A stretch of 64,000 nucleotides of DNA. Source: Desulfobacterales bacterium. GTDB taxonomy: Bacteria; Desulfobacterota; Desulfobacteria; Desulfobacterales; Desulfosalsimonadaceae. This document shows positions 9,195 to 15,462 of the stretch, one piece after another (positions within the stretch are counted from its first letter, which is position 1; the number at the start of each line of letters is the position of its first letter). The DNA lies in contig JAXHNP010000003.1 of the NCBI GenBank assembly GCA_034520365.1, positions 682,001 to 746,000 on the forward strand, in the 5' to 3' direction. The notes under the pieces are model-generated. The model had not been told where the DNA came from. It worked only from the letters and a program-made list of their open reading frames with translations, and made no database searches. Made by a program: the position numbers and the translations under genes.

Positions 9195-10643
9195 TTGATC
9201 AAACGGATTGAACTGATCAACTTCATGTCCCATCCCCATACGGTGATTGAACCGGCAGACGGGCTGACCGTGCTGACCGGGGAGAACAATACCGGAAAAT
9301 CCGCGGTCATTGCCGCCCTCCAGATACTTGCCCGGAATACGGCCGGAGATTTTATGATGCGCCACGGCGAGCGGGAATGCCGCATCATTGTGGAAACCCA
9401 TGAGGGAGATATTGTCCAATGGCAGCGAAAAAACAAAACCGTCAGCTACATGTTAAACGGCCGGGAAATCCACCGGCTGCGAAACGCCGTGCCGGAGGAT
9501 CTTCACGACCTGCTTAAAATGCCGCTGGTGGATGTGGAGGGGGGCGCATTTGACGTGCATTTCGGCGAGCAGAAAAAACCGATTTTTCTTCTGGATGACT
9601 CCCCGGCCCGGCGGGCGACTTTTTTCGCCTCTGCCTCGGATACCATCAAGCTAATTGAAATGCAGAACGTACACCGGCAGAAAGTCCGGGATGCAAAGCT
9701 GCAGGAAAAACGGCTGGAAGCGGACAAGGCCCGGCTGGATCAGCGGCTGGAGGCTCTCGCGCCTCTGGAGATGCTGGATAAAAAAATAAACGATATAGAA
9801 ACGGTTTATACGGACATTCAGGCCGGTAGCGAAAAATTAAAAAAACTTGAGACCACCCTGGGCCGGATGCGGCATACAATGGAAAAAACCGCCTATTGGG
9901 CGGATACAGCCAAAGCCGGCGCCGCCCTATCCCCGCCGCCCCAACTGATGCCCACGGATTTTCTGGCCCGGCTTATCCGGCAGATCAACGTCTTTAACAG
10001 CCTTACGCAGAAAACAATCGCGGAGACAGGCACCCTTGCCGACCTGCCGGCCCCGCCGGCGCTTTCCGATACAAAGCACCTGGCGGCAATGATTGAACGC
10101 ATCCAAGAGGCGGAAATCCGGCGGCGGTATTGCCAAAAACAGGCCGAGGCCCTTACCCCCGTCAACGCGCCGCCGGAAATGAAACCCACGGAGCCGCTCA
10201 AGGCGCTTGTAACGCGCATGCAGGCGCTTAACCGCCGTATCCGTTCTACCCGGACGGGTCTGAATTTGCTTGGCCAATGCCCGGCACCGCCGGATATGCA
10301 GTCTCCGGATGGATTAAAACGCCTGATTGATCGCCTGCATGTACTTGAAACCGAAGTGTTGCGAAAAAAGCAACAGGCAGATCGGCTTTCCAGGCTTTCC
10401 GCCCCGCCGCAGCCGGCAGAGACCCAGAAACTCGAAAACCTGATTGAGCAGATCAAAAAAAGCCGAAATCACATGGACCGGCTGGCCCGGGAAATGCAGG
10501 GGCTTGATAAAGAGTTATCCAAAACCGATGCGGTGCTTCGCCGCCGCATCCAGACGGCCGGCATCTGCCCCACCTGCGGCCAGCCCATTGACCCGGATCA
10601 TTTTATGGAAACCGCCCTGGGTATCGGTGGAAGCGGCGTATGA
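9195..10643 (+). CDS. Rad50/SbcC-like ATPase, N-terminal half ending at a zinc-hook-like CxxC
   Basis: The first of four tightly packed genes. Residues 1-150 are an SMC/Rad50-type ATPase lobe: IKRIELINFMSHPHTVIEP, then a Walker A (GENNTGKS, residues 29-36). There is no signature motif or Walker B in this protein. Residues 150-245 are coiled coil. Residues 247-441 consist of five consecutive 39-residue repeats, each opening with a Pro-rich APP-like step followed by a helix. Residues 458-461 are CPTC, followed by GQPI, like the Rad50 zinc hook at the coil apex. The protein stops 21 residues later, where Rad50 would turn back into its return coil. The matching signature and Walker B are in the fourth gene (11914-12588). 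I infer a split Rad50/SbcC. Its stop overlaps the next start by 4 bases. Confidence 0.85.
   Translation: MIKRIELINFMSHPHTVIEPADGLTVLTGENNTGKSAVIAALQILARNTAGDFMMRHGERECRIIVETHEGDIVQWQRKNKTVSYMLNGREIHRLRNAVPEDLHDLLKMPLVDVEGGAFDVHFGEQKKPIFLLDDSPARRATFFASASDTIKLIEMQNVHRQKVRDAKLQEKRLEADKARLDQRLEALAPLEMLDKKINDIETVYTDIQAGSEKLKKLETTLGRMRHTMEKTAYWADTAKAGAALSPPPQLMPTDFLARLIRQINVFNSLTQKTIAETGTLADLPAPPALSDTKHLAAMIERIQEAEIRRRYCQKQAEALTPVNAPPEMKPTEPLKALVTRMQALNRRIRSTRTGLNLLGQCPAPPDMQSPDGLKRLIDRLHVLETEVLRKKQQADRLSRLSAPPQPAETQKLENLIEQIKKSRNHMDRLAREMQGLDKELSKTDAVLRRRIQTAGICPTCGQPIDPDHFMETALGIGGSGV
9933..10517 (+). repeat. Five in-frame 117-bp units encoding 39-residue coil repeats
   Basis: Units begin at 9933, 10050, 10167, 10284 and 10401. 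Each encodes a turn (PPPQL, APPAL, APPEM, APPDM, APPQP) followed after a few residues by a helix with the pattern L..LI..I at unit positions 11-18 (LARLIRQI, LAAMIERI, LKALVTRM, LKRLIDRL, LENLIEQI). All are exactly 39 residues long with no gaps. The DNA is diverged, so this is an old protein-level duplication. Confidence 0.85.
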
Positions 10644-11629
10644 ACAGAGAATACGACAACCTATCTTATAAGGGCCTTCTGATGATCGGGGACCCCCATT
10701 TGGAAGCCCGCATCCCCGGATTCCGAAAGGATAACTACCCGCATGTCATCCTGGAGAAACTCCGCTGGAGTCTGGCCTATGCCCGCTCCGAATCCCTGCT
10801 GCCGATGATTCTGGGCGATCTCTTTCACCTGCCCCGCAGCAACCCGAACTGGCTGCTGGTTGAAGTGATGCAGCAATTTGATATGGAAATCCTGGGCATC
10901 TATGGAAACCATGATGTGCATGAAAACACCCTGACAGATGATGACAGCATCCGGGTGATTGAGCAGGCCGGCAAAATTCGCCTCTTAAACGAATCGGCCG
11001 TCTATCCGATCCAAATAAACGGCCGGCCGGTGATTATCGGGGGCACGTCCTGGGGCCGCCGCCTGCCTGAAAAATACGATCCGGACACGCAAGCCGATTC
11101 CAAGCCCCTTGTCATCTGGCTGGCCCATCATGATGTCATGGTCCCGGGCTATGAAGACCAGGGCCGCATCCGGCCCAAAGAAATCCCCGGCATTGATCTG
11201 GTCATTAACGGACACATCCACCGGTGCCTGGGGGAAATCCAAAAGGGGCAAACCTCCTGGCTCACCCCGGGCAATATCAGCCGCCGGGCCCGAAGCGATG
11301 CCGCCAGACATCATCGCCCGGCGGTTCTGCGTCTGGATATCTGCCAGACTGGATGGACCTGTCAATATATTGAGATTCCGCATCAGCCCTTTGACCAGGT
11401 GTTTTACGAAGCCTTGGCAGATACCGCCGCGGATGATGACACCGGCTCCGCCTTTGTCTCCGGCCTGGCCGAACTTCAGGCCCGCCGGACCCAGACCGGC
11501 GAGGGCCTGATGCTGTTTTTGGAAAAAAACATGGACCAGTTCGAAGCCGACGTGGTCAATGAGATCAAGCAACTCGCATACGAGGCGACCCGAAATGACG
11601 GATCCGAAAGCGGACAAACAGACAATTGA
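10640..11629 (+). CDS. Mre11/SbcD-like metallophosphoesterase
   Basis: A 329-residue calcineurin-like phosphoesterase with the five metal-binding motifs in order: GDPHLE (17-22), LGDLFHLP (58-65), GNHDVHE (89-95), LAHHDV (161-166) and GHIHR (191-195). In Mre11/SbcD these bind two Mn ions for DNA end cleavage. The first motif is GDPH rather than the common GDTH. Residues after about 240 could bind the partner coil, as the Mre11 C-terminal helices do. It sits between the two halves of the Rad50-like ATPase and overlaps both neighbours (4 bases upstream, 35 downstream), so co-translation as one complex is likely. Nuclease activity is inferred. Confidence 0.87.
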   Translation: MNREYDNLSYKGLLMIGDPHLEARIPGFRKDNYPHVILEKLRWSLAYARSESLLPMILGDLFHLPRSNPNWLLVEVMQQFDMEILGIYGNHDVHENTLTDDDSIRVIEQAGKIRLLNESAVYPIQINGRPVIIGGTSWGRRLPEKYDPDTQADSKPLVIWLAHHDVMVPGYEDQGRIRPKEIPGIDLVINGHIHRCLGEIQKGQTSWLTPGNISRRARSDAARHHRPAVLRLDICQTGWTCQYIEIPHQPFDQVFYEALADTAADDDTGSAFVSGLAELQARRTQTGEGLMLFLEKNMDQFEADVVNEIKQLAYEATRNDGSESGQTDN

Positions 11630-11921
11630 GGAGCTAAAAACGCGCTATGAGAGCCTGAACAAACGAAAAATTCAGGCTGAGGCCAACCTGGAAAACGCGC
11701 AGAATCAGCTCGAGGAATTAAAGGCCCAGGCCCGCTCGGAGTTCGGCACAGACGATATTGAGGCGCTCAAAAAGATGCTGGCCGACATGCAGGCTGAAAA
11801 TGAACAGAAACGCGCCGCCTACCAGGAAAGCCTGGACCGCATTGAAAAGGATCTGGCGGCGGTGGCGGAAAAATACAAGGGTCTCGAGGATTCGGATTCG
11901 GAGGCCCCAAAAGATGGCTGA
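11595..11921 (+). CDS. Small coiled-coil protein of the split Rad50-like operon
   Basis: A 108-residue, highly charged protein that is almost entirely predicted coiled coil (TIEELKTRYESLNKRKIQAEANLENAQNQ and onwards) with an acidic tail (EDSDSEAPKDG). No catalytic motif is visible. The ATG at 11595 lies inside the 3' end of the nuclease gene, and the 3' end overlaps the start of the next gene by 8 bases. I infer that it supplies part of the return coil missing from the split Rad50-like ATPase, or clamps the coils. I do not recognise it as a named family. Confidence 0.75.
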   Translation: MTDPKADKQTIEELKTRYESLNKRKIQAEANLENAQNQLEELKAQARSEFGTDDIEALKKMLADMQAENEQKRAAYQESLDRIEKDLAAVAEKYKGLEDSDSEAPKDG

Positions 11922-12588
11922 AACCGAAAAGATCCCCTCGCCCGCCGACCTGCGCCAGAGATTTACCCGGCTCGCCGCCTGGCAGGAGCAGACCCGGAAA
12001 GCGGCCGACCGGACGGAAAATCGCCTGGCCGGCATCCGCCGGTATTTGGCGCTTAGCGACAAGGTCGCCGCGGCCCTGGAAACCTTAAATCAGCAGCTTT
12101 TCCGGGAACTCCTGGATCTCATTGAAACCAAACTCACCATCGCGCTGCAGGAAGTCCTGGAGCAGCCCATCGAGCTGAAGGCTGACGTGGACTGGAAGCG
12201 CAATGCCGCCAGTGTGGAATTCTGGGTCGAGCGGGACGGCCATCGGGAAGACATTCTCAAAGGCCAGGGCGGCTCGGTGGCCAACATCCTGTCAGTGGGG
12301 CTTCGCATGTTCGCCCTGACGACCCTGGATGAGGCCGCGCATCGGCGTTTTCTGATATTGGACGAACAGGACTGCTGGCTGCATCCGGATCTGGTGCCCC
12401 GGCTGGTTAAAATCGTCCATGAAGCGGGGAAGGCCCTGGGGTTTCAGGTGCTGATGGTCTCGCACCATGATCCGAAATCATTTGAACAATACGCGGATCG
12501 AATCTATCGCCTGATTCCGAAGGGTGAGCACGGGGTGTCTGCTGAATTGGTCGGCGACCGGCCTTTTGAAACTGATGCCACGGATTAG
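11914..12588 (+). CDS. Rad50/SbcC-like ATPase, C-terminal half (signature, Walker B, H-loop)
   Basis: A 224-residue protein with no Walker A. Residues 1-90 are helical. The ABC-type signature is KGQGGSVANILSVGL (116-130), Walker B is RFLILDEQD (145-153) with the catalytic Glu, and the H-loop is MVSHHD (181-186). The context EDILKGQGGSVANILSVGLRMFAL followed by WLHPDL is like the C-terminal lobe of Rad50/SMC and RecF-like ATPases. With the gene at 9195 supplying Walker A, the two would make one composite ATPase head. Together with the nuclease and the small coil protein this gives a four-subunit Mre11-Rad50-like machine. The ATG at 11914 is chosen because it overlaps the previous stop (ATGGCTGA). 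Confidence 0.83.
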   Translation: MAETEKIPSPADLRQRFTRLAAWQEQTRKAADRTENRLAGIRRYLALSDKVAAALETLNQQLFRELLDLIETKLTIALQEVLEQPIELKADVDWKRNAASVEFWVERDGHREDILKGQGGSVANILSVGLRMFALTTLDEAAHRRFLILDEQDCWLHPDLVPRLVKIVHEAGKALGFQVLMVSHHDPKSFEQYADRIYRLIPKGEHGVSAELVGDRPFETDATD

Positions 12589-13200: not shown

Positions 13201-13896
13201 ATGCAGATTCATATCCGCCACTATGCCGCCGGTGCGGCGGAAGCCGCCGATTTTGCCGTGATCATCGACGTTTTTCGGGCATTTTCCATGGCCTGCTATG
13301 CATTCTCGCACGGGGCGGCTAAAATTATCGCCGTGCGGGAAGTGGAAACCGCCCGTCAGTGGAAGCAGTCGATTCCCGACTGCATTCTTGTGGGGGAGCG
13401 CCATGCCAAAAAACTCCCCGGCTTTGATTTCGGCAACTCCCCGTCCGAAATTCAGGATGCGGACCTTTCCGACCGGATCATTGTCCATACCACCCACTCG
13501 GGCACCCGGGCGCTCACAGCCGCCGCACATGCCGACCCGGTGATCACCGGAAGTTTTGTTAACTGCGGCGCAATTATCCAGTATATCCAGCAGACCGCTC
13601 CCAGCGAGGTCTCCCTGGTCTGCTCAGGCTTTGAAGGCAGAGAGCCCGCCCTGGAGGATACGCTGTGCGCCGAATTTATTCGGGATGCCCTTTGCGGGCA
13701 GACAAAAAAATCATTTGAAGATATCCGGAAAGAATTAAAAACCGCCGACACCGCCCGCCGGTTTTTTGACCCGGAAGACACATCCTCGCCGGCCACGGAC
13801 TTTGACCTCTGCCTGGCCTTTGATCGCTTCCCGTTTGTCATCCGGCGCACAAAAACAGCTTCGGACTGGTGCGAACTCGAACGGGAGAATTTATAA
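13201..13896 (+). CDS. 2-phosphosulfolactate phosphatase family protein (ComB-like)
   Basis: A 231-residue protein matching ComB: VIIDVFRAFSMACYAFSHGA near the N-terminus, VGERHAKKLPGFDFGNSPSEI, TTHSGTRAL, and LVCSGFEGREPALEDTLCAEFI. In methanogens ComB removes phosphate from phosphosulfolactate on the way to coenzyme M. In bacteria the family's role is less clear (sulfolactate metabolism or spore-type sulfonates). No comA or comC neighbour is present, so the substrate is open. It converges with hisHF, their ends overlapping by 6 bases. Confidence 0.85.
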   Translation: MQIHIRHYAAGAAEAADFAVIIDVFRAFSMACYAFSHGAAKIIAVREVETARQWKQSIPDCILVGERHAKKLPGFDFGNSPSEIQDADLSDRIIVHTTHSGTRALTAAAHADPVITGSFVNCGAIIQYIQQTAPSEVSLVCSGFEGREPALEDTLCAEFIRDALCGQTKKSFEDIRKELKTADTARRFFDPEDTSSPATDFDLCLAFDRFPFVIRRTKTASDWCELERENL

Positions 13897-15462
13897 GCGG
13901 ATTTCGACCTTCTCTGCCAGATATTTTTTCACTGCGGATATGGGCACCTCCCGGCGGTGAAAAATGCCGGCGGCAAGCGCGGCTTCAGCGGCTGTTCGGG
14001 TAAATACCTCCAGGAAATGGGCCTCGCTGCCGGCCCCGCTGGAGGCGATCACCGGTATGGAGACGGCATCGGCCACCGCATTGATCAGTTCGATATCAAA
14101 GCCCGCACCTGTGCCGTCCCGATCAATGGAATTTACAAGAATCTCACCGGCCCCCAGTTCCTCGCAGGCTTTGGCCAGGGTCACCGCATCCACGGGCCGG
14201 CCTTCCCGCCCGCCCCTGACCGTACACTGAAACCAGCAGAAACGCTCGCCGTTTGGGCCGGGCAGCCCGGTTTCAATCACATGATAAGGCTCATTTGCCG
14301 GGCGATCCACGTAAACCCGCCGCGGATCAATGGAAATAACCACCGCCTGGTTGCCGTAGATGGCAGAAATCTCTTCAATGGCGCTTTTTCCGGTCTTTTC
14401 GCCGCTGGCCAGATAATTTTCAACAATTGAAACCGCATCACTGCCAATGGAAATCTTATCCGCGCCTGAGCGGAAATACGCGGCCGCCACCTCAAGGGCG
14501 GTATAGGTCTGCCCGGACTGATCCGTGTAATCCCGGATTCCGCCGCCGATGGTCAAAGGCACGAATACATGCCGGGAGGTCTGCTTCAAAACTTCCAGCA
14601 TGGGCAGATCCTTTAAGGGGAAATCCCGGAACCCGGTAATGTTTAAAAAAGTGATTTCATCCGCATCCGCCTCATAATAGCGGCGGGCCAGATCCACCGG
14701 CTTGCCGAGATTGCGGACTTCGCCCTTTTCCCGCACATCATAGCGATCCCCCTTGGTCACCACCAGATCGCCGGCGTCATTGGTCCGAACATCCAGACAG
14801 GCGACAATCCGCTTGGCCAGCCGCGTCTCTGTTTGCTGCCGGATTGCGGCCGGCCGGCCGGCGCCCGGGCGGATAAAATTCTGAAACACCGCCAAACCGG
14901 CATCTCCGCTTTTTTCCGGGTGAAACTGGGTGGCCACAAGGTTTCCGGTTTTGATACTGCTGACAAAGGCTTTCCCATAGGTGGTATAGGTCAGTGCCAC
15001 TGCCGGATCATCCGGCACCACGTGATAGGAATGCACAAAATAGAATTTCTCCGCGCCATTTAAATGGTTGAATATGGCCGTGTCCTGCCGGATCACGACC
15101 CCGTTCCACCCCATGTGGGGCACGGATAAATCCGTATCAAAGCGTTTGACGGTGCCGCCAATCACACCCAGGCCGGGGGTATCCGGCGCCTCCTCGCTTT
15201 TTTCAAAAAGCGCCTGAAGCCCCAGACAGATACCCAGAAAGGGGCGGTCCTGCTTGATATAGGTCGTTAAGGCATCCACGTAATCCTTTTCCCGCAGCAC
15301 TTGCATCATGCTGCCGAAATTGCCCACCCCCGGAAACACCAGTTTTTCCGCTCTGTCAATATCTTCCGGTCCGGCCGCGACATGGACGGTTTCGCCCAGT
15401 TTTTCAATGGCGTTGACCACACTTCGCACATTGCCGGCCCCGTAATCGAGCAAAGTAATCAT
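13891..15462 (-). CDS. hisHF: Fused imidazole glycerol phosphate synthase HisH-HisF
   Basis: A 523-residue protein joining both IGP synthase subunits, which make imidazole glycerol phosphate and AICAR from PRFAR and glutamine in histidine synthesis. Residues 1-200 are the class I glutaminase (FLGICLGLQALF with the nucleophile Cys; QFHPEKSGDAG with His and Glu). Residues about 215-523 are the HisF barrel. The barrel has the eukaryotic-type inserts and motifs GDRYDVREKGEVRNLGKPVD, FLNITGFRDFPLKDLPMLEV, VVISIDPRRVYV and VIASSGAGSEAHFLEVF. The layout is that of yeast HIS7 and plant plastid enzymes rather than separate bacterial hisH and hisF. There are no other his genes beside it. Confidence 0.95.
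   Translation of the reverse strand: MITLLDYGAGNVRSVVNAIEKLGETVHVAAGPEDIDRAEKLVFPGVGNFGSMMQVLREKDYVDALTTYIKQDRPFLGICLGLQALFEKSEEAPDTPGLGVIGGTVKRFDTDLSVPHMGWNGVVIRQDTAIFNHLNGAEKFYFVHSYHVVPDDPAVALTYTTYGKAFVSSIKTGNLVATQFHPEKSGDAGLAVFQNFIRPGAGRPAAIRQQTETRLAKRIVACLDVRTNDAGDLVVTKGDRYDVREKGEVRNLGKPVDLARRYYEADADEITFLNITGFRDFPLKDLPMLEVLKQTSRHVFVPLTIGGGIRDYTDQSGQTYTALEVAAAYFRSGADKISIGSDAVSIVENYLASGEKTGKSAIEEISAIYGNQAVVISIDPRRVYVDRPANEPYHVIETGLPGPNGERFCWFQCTVRGGREGRPVDAVTLAKACEELGAGEILVNSIDRDGTGAGFDIELINAVADAVSIPVIASSGAGSEAHFLEVFTRTAAEAALAAGIFHRREVPISAVKKYLAEKVEIRL

Follow-up and report, generated by a model that had tools for sequence, protein, structure and literature searches.

We describe here a four-gene operon at positions 9195 to 12588 of a 64,000-nucleotide stretch of DNA from a Desulfobacterales bacterium (GenBank assembly GCA_034520365.1, contig JAXHNP010000003.1, positions 682,001 to 746,000; hereafter the window). 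The four genes, A to D, most probably encode a split or permuted DNA-end-processing complex of the Mre11-Rad50 kind, with the small protein C as an extra conserved subunit; we put the probability of this reading at roughly 0.8. Its basis is computed, and comprises motifs, the complementarity of the two ATPase lobes, a natural fusion of these lobes, conservation, gene company and mutual exclusion in two samples of genomes. The features of the operon are as follows.

Gene A: 9195-10643, + strand; TTG start, 482 aa; Rad50-like N-terminal ATPase lobe and segmented helical arm, CPTC-ended
Walker A GENNTGKS: 9279-9302, + strand; A residues 29-36, from the motif scan
Arm region, ~39-residue units each initiated by PP: 9933-10520, + strand; PP at A residues 247, 287, 326, 365 and 404
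CPTC hook motif: 10566-10577, + strand; A residues 458-461, 21 residues from the C-terminus
Gene B: 10640-11629, + strand; 329 aa; Mre11/SbcD-like calcineurin phosphoesterase, metal-binding motif residues kept
Gene C: 11595-11921, + strand; 108 aa; small coiled-coil-like protein with a (F/Y)GTxD turn mid-chain
Gene D: 11914-12588, + strand; 224 aa; Rad50-like C-terminal ATPase lobe and N-terminal helix
ABC-signature position GQGGS: 12262-12276, + strand; D residues 117-121, invariant in 19/19
Walker B FLILDE: 12349-12366, + strand; D residues 146-151, from the motif scan and the D alignment
H-loop histidine: 12463-12465, + strand; D residue 184, invariant in 19/19

The ATPase lobes of A and D

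An earlier reading made from the sequence alone (the sequence-only reading) had placed four open reading frames (ORFs) here with overlaps of 4 to 35 bases. All four were recovered on the + strand, with overlaps of 4 (A/B), 35 (B/C) and 8 (C/D) bases, and the TTG start of A agrees with its homologues, which share this starting residue in the alignment of A proteins. A motif scan found a Walker A in A at residue 29 and CPTC at residue 458, with no hhhhDE box, and in D GQGG at residues 117–120 and FLILDE at residue 146, with no Walker A; neither a Walker A nor an hhhhDE box was found in B or C. The scan thus agrees with the assignment of Walker A and a near-terminal CPTC to A, and of the signature region, Walker B and H-loop to D, and in none of the four products did it find a complete Walker A together with a Walker B. 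(An IFLLDE string past the Q-loop region in the A protein of a homologous locus, L106, was taken as a chance occurrence and not as a Walker B.) Conservation is strict: G29, N31, N32, G34, K35 and S36, as well as both hook cysteines, are invariant in 18/18 A proteins, and the GQGGS sequence, D150 and E151 of Walker B and the H-loop SHH (H184) in all 19 D proteins. In Pfam, NCBIfam and PHROG, A matched AAA_23/AAA_15, Rad50, ASRP and SbcC-like families, far under the NCBIfam cut-offs; the SbcC/Rad50 cut-off was not reached (42.9 bits against 700 for the best Rad50 model), and could hardly be reached by A, because A is a single lobe.

AlphaFold2 single-chain models were obtained for A (predicted local distance difference test, pLDDT, 70; predicted template modelling score, pTM, 0.31) and D (pLDDT 74, pTM 0.48). 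A Foldseek search placed D nearest to C-terminal pieces of P. furiosus Rad50 (9a9j_B, 3qkr_B and 1f2u_B). The N-lobe of A matched N-terminal portions of the heads of RecF, SMC and Rad50 proteins, among which Rad50 did not rank first. In VIA-align, A residues 1–133 could be aligned to 9a9j_A 1002–1139 with Z = 9.6 and a root-mean-square deviation (RMSD) of 3.4 over 117 aligned residues, and D residues 38–214 to 9a9j_B 1716–1882 with Z = 12.1 (RMSD 3.7, 162 aligned). The corresponding values were Z = 9.4 (RMSD 3.9, 114 aligned) for A on 1f2u_C 2–146 and Z = 10.9 (RMSD 2.9, 140 aligned) for D on 1f2u_B 738–882. We take the matched 9a9j_A and 9a9j_B pieces to be the two halves of one P. furiosus Rad50 head. 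The pieces in 9a9j and 1f2u are separate short chains, which shows that two chains can physically form a workable head. The models support the view that A and D would supply complementary lobes of one ATPase head.

The strongest evidence that A and D form one ATPase comes from megaplasmids, in which the two are naturally fused. A plasmid search with D gave 21 megaplasmid records. A fused protein from Bosea yielded one continuous match, extending beyond its Walker A, in each of 21 plasmid records (nine genera), some of them near-copies. In all 11 plasmid loci that were read, D and A lie in a single ORF of about 550–770 aa in the order D lobe, A lobe, arm and hook, with the CxxC hook near the C-terminus. 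A homologue of C was detected by profile directly upstream of the fused gene in nine of the 11 loci, while a 176-aa ORF occupies the C position in two Alteromonas loci; B follows in 11/11, although its matches are weak in three (E 1e-7 to 1e-6). The P-loops of two of the 11 proteins read GDVDIGKS and GDVDLGKS. Judged by its sequence, the plasmid D-A protein is a Rad50 whose parts are circularly permuted, and the arrangement C-DA-B is a rotation of A-B-C-D. The sequence-only reading had described an ATPase divided at the hook. The division itself is borne out by the fit of the halves to complementary Rad50 head pieces and by the fusion, but to call it a Rad50 cut at the hook understates the rearrangement, since D comes before A in the natural fusion, which makes it a circular permutation. 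A helicase gene (ATP-dependent or UvrD-like; RecQ in Alteromonas) is annotated near C-DA-B in the megaplasmid loci L121, L126, L127, L118 and L128.

The arm, protein C and the nuclease

The CxxC motif of A is zinc-hook-like, and the arm that leads to it is segmented. The PP pairs are spaced 38–42 residues apart in the A proteins, and the last PP lies 52–55 residues ahead of the hook in 24 of 32 proteins (14/18 and 10/14). When the arms were matched against themselves at lags of 20 to 60 residues, the best lag was 39 in 12/12 arms, and in nine of these the match exceeded that of all 300 shuffles; in L016, L022 and L018, respectively 3, 5 and 122 of the 300 shuffles scored as high. (Near-copies L005, L015, L019, L023 and L024 were left out of this test, and L021 was skipped for its arm of <90 residues.) The arms of the plasmid D-A proteins gave best lags of 34–40, not a clean 39. 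In the AlphaFold2 model of A, the arm helices span residues 149–244, 254–281, 293–319, 333–360, 371–400 and 407–455. Across the A proteins, the hook is found anywhere from residue 340 to 659, meanwhile C stays at 97–110 aa and D at 211–239 aa. The hook positions correspond to about 1, 2, 3, 4, 5 and 9 arm units, although the ≈39-residue step is approximate and some arms are off whole units by up to one third. Because both odd and even unit numbers occur, we infer that the units extend the rod and do not fold back on one another. With an arm that varies by >300 aa and near-constant C and D, there is no arm-length return strand as one chain, and these sequence lengths are incompatible with the antiparallel arm of a normal Rad50. 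A geometry unlike that of standard Rad50 had been foreseen in the sequence-only reading, and the stepwise variation of the arm agrees with it.

Protein C, predicted earlier to be a small coil, is indeed coil-like over its 108 aa: two stretches of ≈40 residues, judged by eye to be helical, flank a conserved (F/Y)GTxD turn. The half length is near that of the arm unit, and our guess from these lengths is that C may line the arm. The sequence-only reading had treated C as part of a return coil; its coil-like character fits, but it is not a mere leftover of such a coil, being present beside the fused D-A gene in 9/11 loci and keeping a length of ≈100 aa throughout. The assignment of B as an Mre11-like phosphoesterase holds: B matches Pfam Metallophos (7e-6), and D18, H20, D60, N90, H91, H163, H192 and H194 are invariant in all 16 B proteins, among which the C-terminal region is also conserved.

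Distribution and relation to SbcCD

A scan of the genome collection with D gave 23 loci, in Desulfobacterales, Planctomycetota, an Armatimonadota metagenome-assembled genome (MAG), two 'proteobacterial' MAGs, a Methanoregulaceae-labelled MAG and one further bacterium. The genes A-B-C-D are consecutive on one strand in 21 of these (A is clipped by the contig start in four); locus L013 is clipped by a contig end. The same order was sought in other Desulfobacterota, as had been proposed, and was found in 14 of 17 further loci of that phylum, in two of which another gene intervenes between C and D; the other three comprise two B-C-D loci without a nearby A and one clipped by a contig end. Overall, 35 of 40 cellular loci have the order A-B-C-D, from Desulfobacterota to Planctomycetota. 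The ratio of nonsynonymous to synonymous substitution rates (dN/dS) was 0.05–0.17 in 13 pairwise gene comparisons covering all four genes, and by this sequence measure all four are under purifying selection. D is present in 9/36 genomes of the home family and in 20/395 genomes of a Desulfobacterota sample. In L101 (5861–8056) and L103 (4355–6418), both from one Desulfobacterota genus, C and D are separated by a gene that by eye resembles RNase II/RNB.

The layout is not limited to Desulfobacterota, but occurs also in Planctomycetota, MAGs of other phyla, phages and plasmids. A tree of D with 57 rows has one branch that splits the phage from the cellular forms, and the plasmid D-A forms adjoin the cellular clade; the branches leading to the phage and plasmid forms are long, so that their exact placement and the deeper order are unsure. 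The clade of the window's D joins Planctomycetota and not the remaining Desulfobacterota (moderate support, 90/79 there and 93/95 at a deeper fork), pointing to a transfer between phyla. The D proteins of L018 and L024, one from a Fimbriimonadaceae MAG and the other from a Methanoregulaceae MAG, are 97% identical, reflecting either a mis-binned contig or a very recent transfer.

Phage loci were found by scanning viral contigs with B (2 loci) and with A (12 loci), followed by a search of whole records. A viral-contig scan with the D alignment gave 46 stretches that fit the pattern, among which no relative was confirmed, and tblastn of the fused D-A protein against phages gave no match. In the whole-record search, a D gene was present in 12 of the 17 virus records carrying A or B, six of the 12 having been rows of the query alignment; these include all eight records of at least 100 kb, and the five records without a D match are fragments of 9–61 kb. 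Near-copies, such as L043 and L045, occur among these records. The predicted phage D proteins are ≈205–221 aa long, and a distance of 8 to >100 kb separates A from D in six virus records that were checked. Both genes are carried by phages Tunturi_5, vB_BboS-125 and Magritte and by the uncultured phage LR745208. Since phages carry separate A and D genes, the split extends beyond cells. Weaker matches were a D-like one in Microcystis phage Mvi-JY20 and A-lobe matches in Pseudomonas phages Jeremy and Dolphis.

L036 carries, in this order, a partial A, B, PD-(D/E)XK, C, a beta-clamp-like gene and D. A similar plan is seen in L035 and L048, where the ORF at the matching place is missed by the C profile and named C-like from its position and pattern only. 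The C profile matched vB_BboS-125 weakly (E 0.03 over the whole record, 7e-5 at the locus). A beta-clamp-like gene lies between B and D in L035 (8967–10566), L036 (1834–4254) and L048 (10131–13756), and two of these three clusters also contain PD-(D/E)XK. A polynucleotide kinase/phosphatase-like gene is present in L048 as well; the L048 clamp, without a Pfam match, was named by position. In gene content, these phage clusters look like a recombination-replication module. In vB_BboS-125, an unannotated 326-aa Mre11-like ORF follows gp36 (L049 5357–6337), giving an A...C-D...B set.

A check for a normal sbcCD in genomes with the operon had also been proposed. In the window's genome, no SbcD match was found at E 1e-3, while 13 of 14 control genomes have one. 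No SbcC above the family cut-off was found there either, a weak test that only 1/14 controls passes; the search gave two short N-terminal matches (E 1.6e-7 and 7.6e-4). Counting SbcD-like matches only at E<1e-9, the 36 home-family genomes include nine with D, 18 with a strong SbcD-like gene and none with both (hypergeometric p = 5e-4, or 1e-3 minus the window's genome). For the three genera in which both kinds occur, the product of probabilities is 0.008 (0.011 minus the window's genome). Weaker SbcD matches (E 1e-5 to 1e-3) in the D-bearing genomes G005, G007, G015 and G029 were assumed to be other phosphoesterases. In a sample of 246 Planctomycete genomes, D was present in 11 and SbcD-like genes in 83, with no overlap (p = 0.010, or 0.022 minus two genomes known beforehand to have D); D matches of E≈1e-3 inside long ORFs (G138, G173 and G242) were excluded from this count. 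Thirteen of the 18 SbcD-like sites of the family were read, of which 11 adjoin a P-loop ORF of at least 982 aa (≈1,175 aa when complete) and two are cut by contig ends. We conclude that A-B-C-D probably stands in for an absent SbcCD/YhaON-type system in its host.

The proposed complex and its alternatives

In the proposed complex, A would give the ATP-binding P-loop lobe and a long arm, and D the lobe with the signature, Walker B and H-loop. One A and one D would combine into a composite Rad50-like head, and two such heads would dimerise around two ATPs. B would be the nuclease and C a fourth, conserved subunit. The arm would run outward only, with the hook at the chain end and no covalent strand back to the head. 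By analogy with Mre11-Rad50, the whole would be an ATP-controlled nuclease acting on DNA ends. We likewise infer assembly of the complex, zinc-mediated pairing of the hooks and the placement of C along the arm.

Several observations weigh against this reading. The canonical ABC signature is LSGG(E/Q); D keeps the GG, with the serine replaced by glutamine (Q118), phage D proteins diverge further at this position, and the plasmid protein L125 has NSGAM there. The models of A and D are only middling in confidence, and the A fold fits RecF, RecN and SMC heads equally well or better than Rad50. D is solitary on its stretch in L009, where B and C lie on another contig, and in L107 and L116, from one Desulfobacterota genus, no A was found beside B-C-D in the fetched stretch, A not having been sought elsewhere. 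Nine of the 36 home-family genomes have neither D nor a strong SbcD-like gene. The sampled genomes are related and some are incomplete, and the exclusion statistics ignore tree structure above genus. Finally, the separation of D and SbcD seen in the family does not extend to L017 and L020, two of 16 D-bearing genomes outside it, which also have a clear SbcD (E<1e-45); replacement is therefore not absolute.

A decayed or frameshifted sbcC, in which one Rad50 gene has been fragmented in this lineage, might be suspected from the overlap of the A–D pieces and from canonical Rad50 having both lobes on one chain. Such a fragment would hardly recur in the same order in 35/40 loci across phyla with dN/dS of 0.05–0.17, nor have a nuclease gene between its pieces, fused relatives in the opposite lobe order and separate D genes in phages. 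Conservation, selection and gene order rule out a broken sbcC, and we give this explanation next to no weight; the homologues are four genes conserved across phyla. A second alternative, that A and D belong to separate heads with other partners and that the operon merely co-regulates them, draws on the wide A–D spacing in the six virus records and on the few cellular genomes in which A or D is detached. It is very improbable, given that the two are fused in 11/11 plasmid loci, that each has exactly the motifs missing from the other, and that they fit complementary halves of one Rad50 head.

It is also conceivable, but unlikely, that the operon serves defence, in the manner of Lamassu, Gabija or Wadjet, and does not encode a repair complex. 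The distribution is patchy in both the family and the phylum sample, phyla are mixed in the tree, A has partial PADLOC profile matches to LmuB (2.7e-13) and GajA and D to mad3 (2e-8), and LmuB of Lamassu ranks 28th in the structural comparison of D (Z = 7.5). No full-length match to a PADLOC system component was found, however, for A (among the best 25 of 79 matches), B, C or D, all matches being partial at most, and B had no PADLOC match at E 0.1. Housekeeping-like neighbours, the mutual exclusion of D and SbcD-like genes, and carriage by phages (three loci with neighbouring clamp-like genes, two of these also with PD-(D/E)XK) likewise speak against defence. A further proposal, which we regard as doubtful, reduces C to a short return strand pairing with the base of the arm in imitation of a normal Rad50 coil. 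It suits the coil-like character of C and the match of its ≈40-residue halves to the arm unit; on the other hand, C (97–110 aa) and D (211–239 aa) hold their lengths as the hook ranges over residues 340–659, a full strand would need many copies of C, and C also stands beside the fused D-A gene in 9/11 loci. More tentatively than we propose the split complex itself, and with the odds somewhat against it, the operon may represent a third SMC/Rad50 topology, split or permuted, with one-way modular arms and copies of C lining the arm as its return strand. Such copies would allow arm length to evolve stepwise without rebuilding a matching partner strand.

In the models of Rad50 and SMC proteins known to us, the chain is assumed to run out along a coiled coil, reverse at the hook or hinge and come back to finish the ATPase from which it started. 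To our knowledge, every known Rad50 arm returns to the head, and an outward-only arm would be unlike all of them. Like Mre11-Rad50/SbcCD (gp46/gp47 in T4), the present system has ABC ATPase motifs, a CxxC hook and an Mre11-type nuclease in the same operon. Unlike it, the ATPase is on two chains, or one permuted chain, with a terminal hook, no covalent return coil, ≈39-residue arm modules, the extra subunit C and a replaced signature serine. The Rad50/SbcC topology of both lobes on one chain with the hook mid-coil is thus absent here, with two genes and a hook 21 residues from the end of A. We nevertheless count the system as of the Mre11-Rad50 kind because the catalytic motifs fit, bar the signature serine, even though the defining chain topology fails. 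The pair that apparently fills the same niche in sister genomes, which we presume to be of the YhaN/YhaO type, likewise joins a nuclease to an SMC-like ATPase, but has one long ATPase chain (≈1175 aa) and an SbcD-like gene of ≈430 aa. PHROG 16465 ('exonuclease', 491 aa) and 15167 ('ATPase', 211 aa) are the phage counterparts of A and D, listed as separate families with no link given between them. A loop that is cut at the hook, and elsewhere re-joined at the head, offers a natural test of the closed antiparallel coil in signalling, and the permuted and split forms are ready constructs for testing communication between head and hook. Arms in ≈39-residue steps likewise provide a ruler for arm length.

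Mre11/Rad50 fusion proteins of viruses and plasmids show a rearranged architecture in which the nuclease is fused to the ATPase, and those of Anaerostipes and Bacillus phage 0305phi8-36 are without one SbcC P-loop segment (PMC3175470). It is possible that the latter two hide a split; neither a hook split nor a permutation is described in the accessible part of that paper. SbcC and SbcD are nearly universal among jumbo phages, in which other split enzymes are reported, and an A/D split is unmentioned in the accessible part of the report (PMC7824862). No split or permuted Rad50 was found in the literature surveyed, a search that most subscription papers and preprints fell outside, and within the same limits this agrees with the sequence-only reading, to which no such system was known. 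Relatives in remote bacteria, phages and large plasmids indicate that the design, apparently not described before, is a real one of the Mre11-Rad50 type. These findings suggest that Mre11-Rad50 function in some bacteria and jumbo phages resides in genes annotated as 'ATPase', 'exonuclease' or 'hypothetical'.

The neighbours of the operon in the window resemble housekeeping genes (tat, molybdopterin) as recognised by eye. On the minus strand at 13891–15462, a 523-aa ORF resembles, again by eye, a HisH-HisF fusion, the layout of eukaryotic HIS7.

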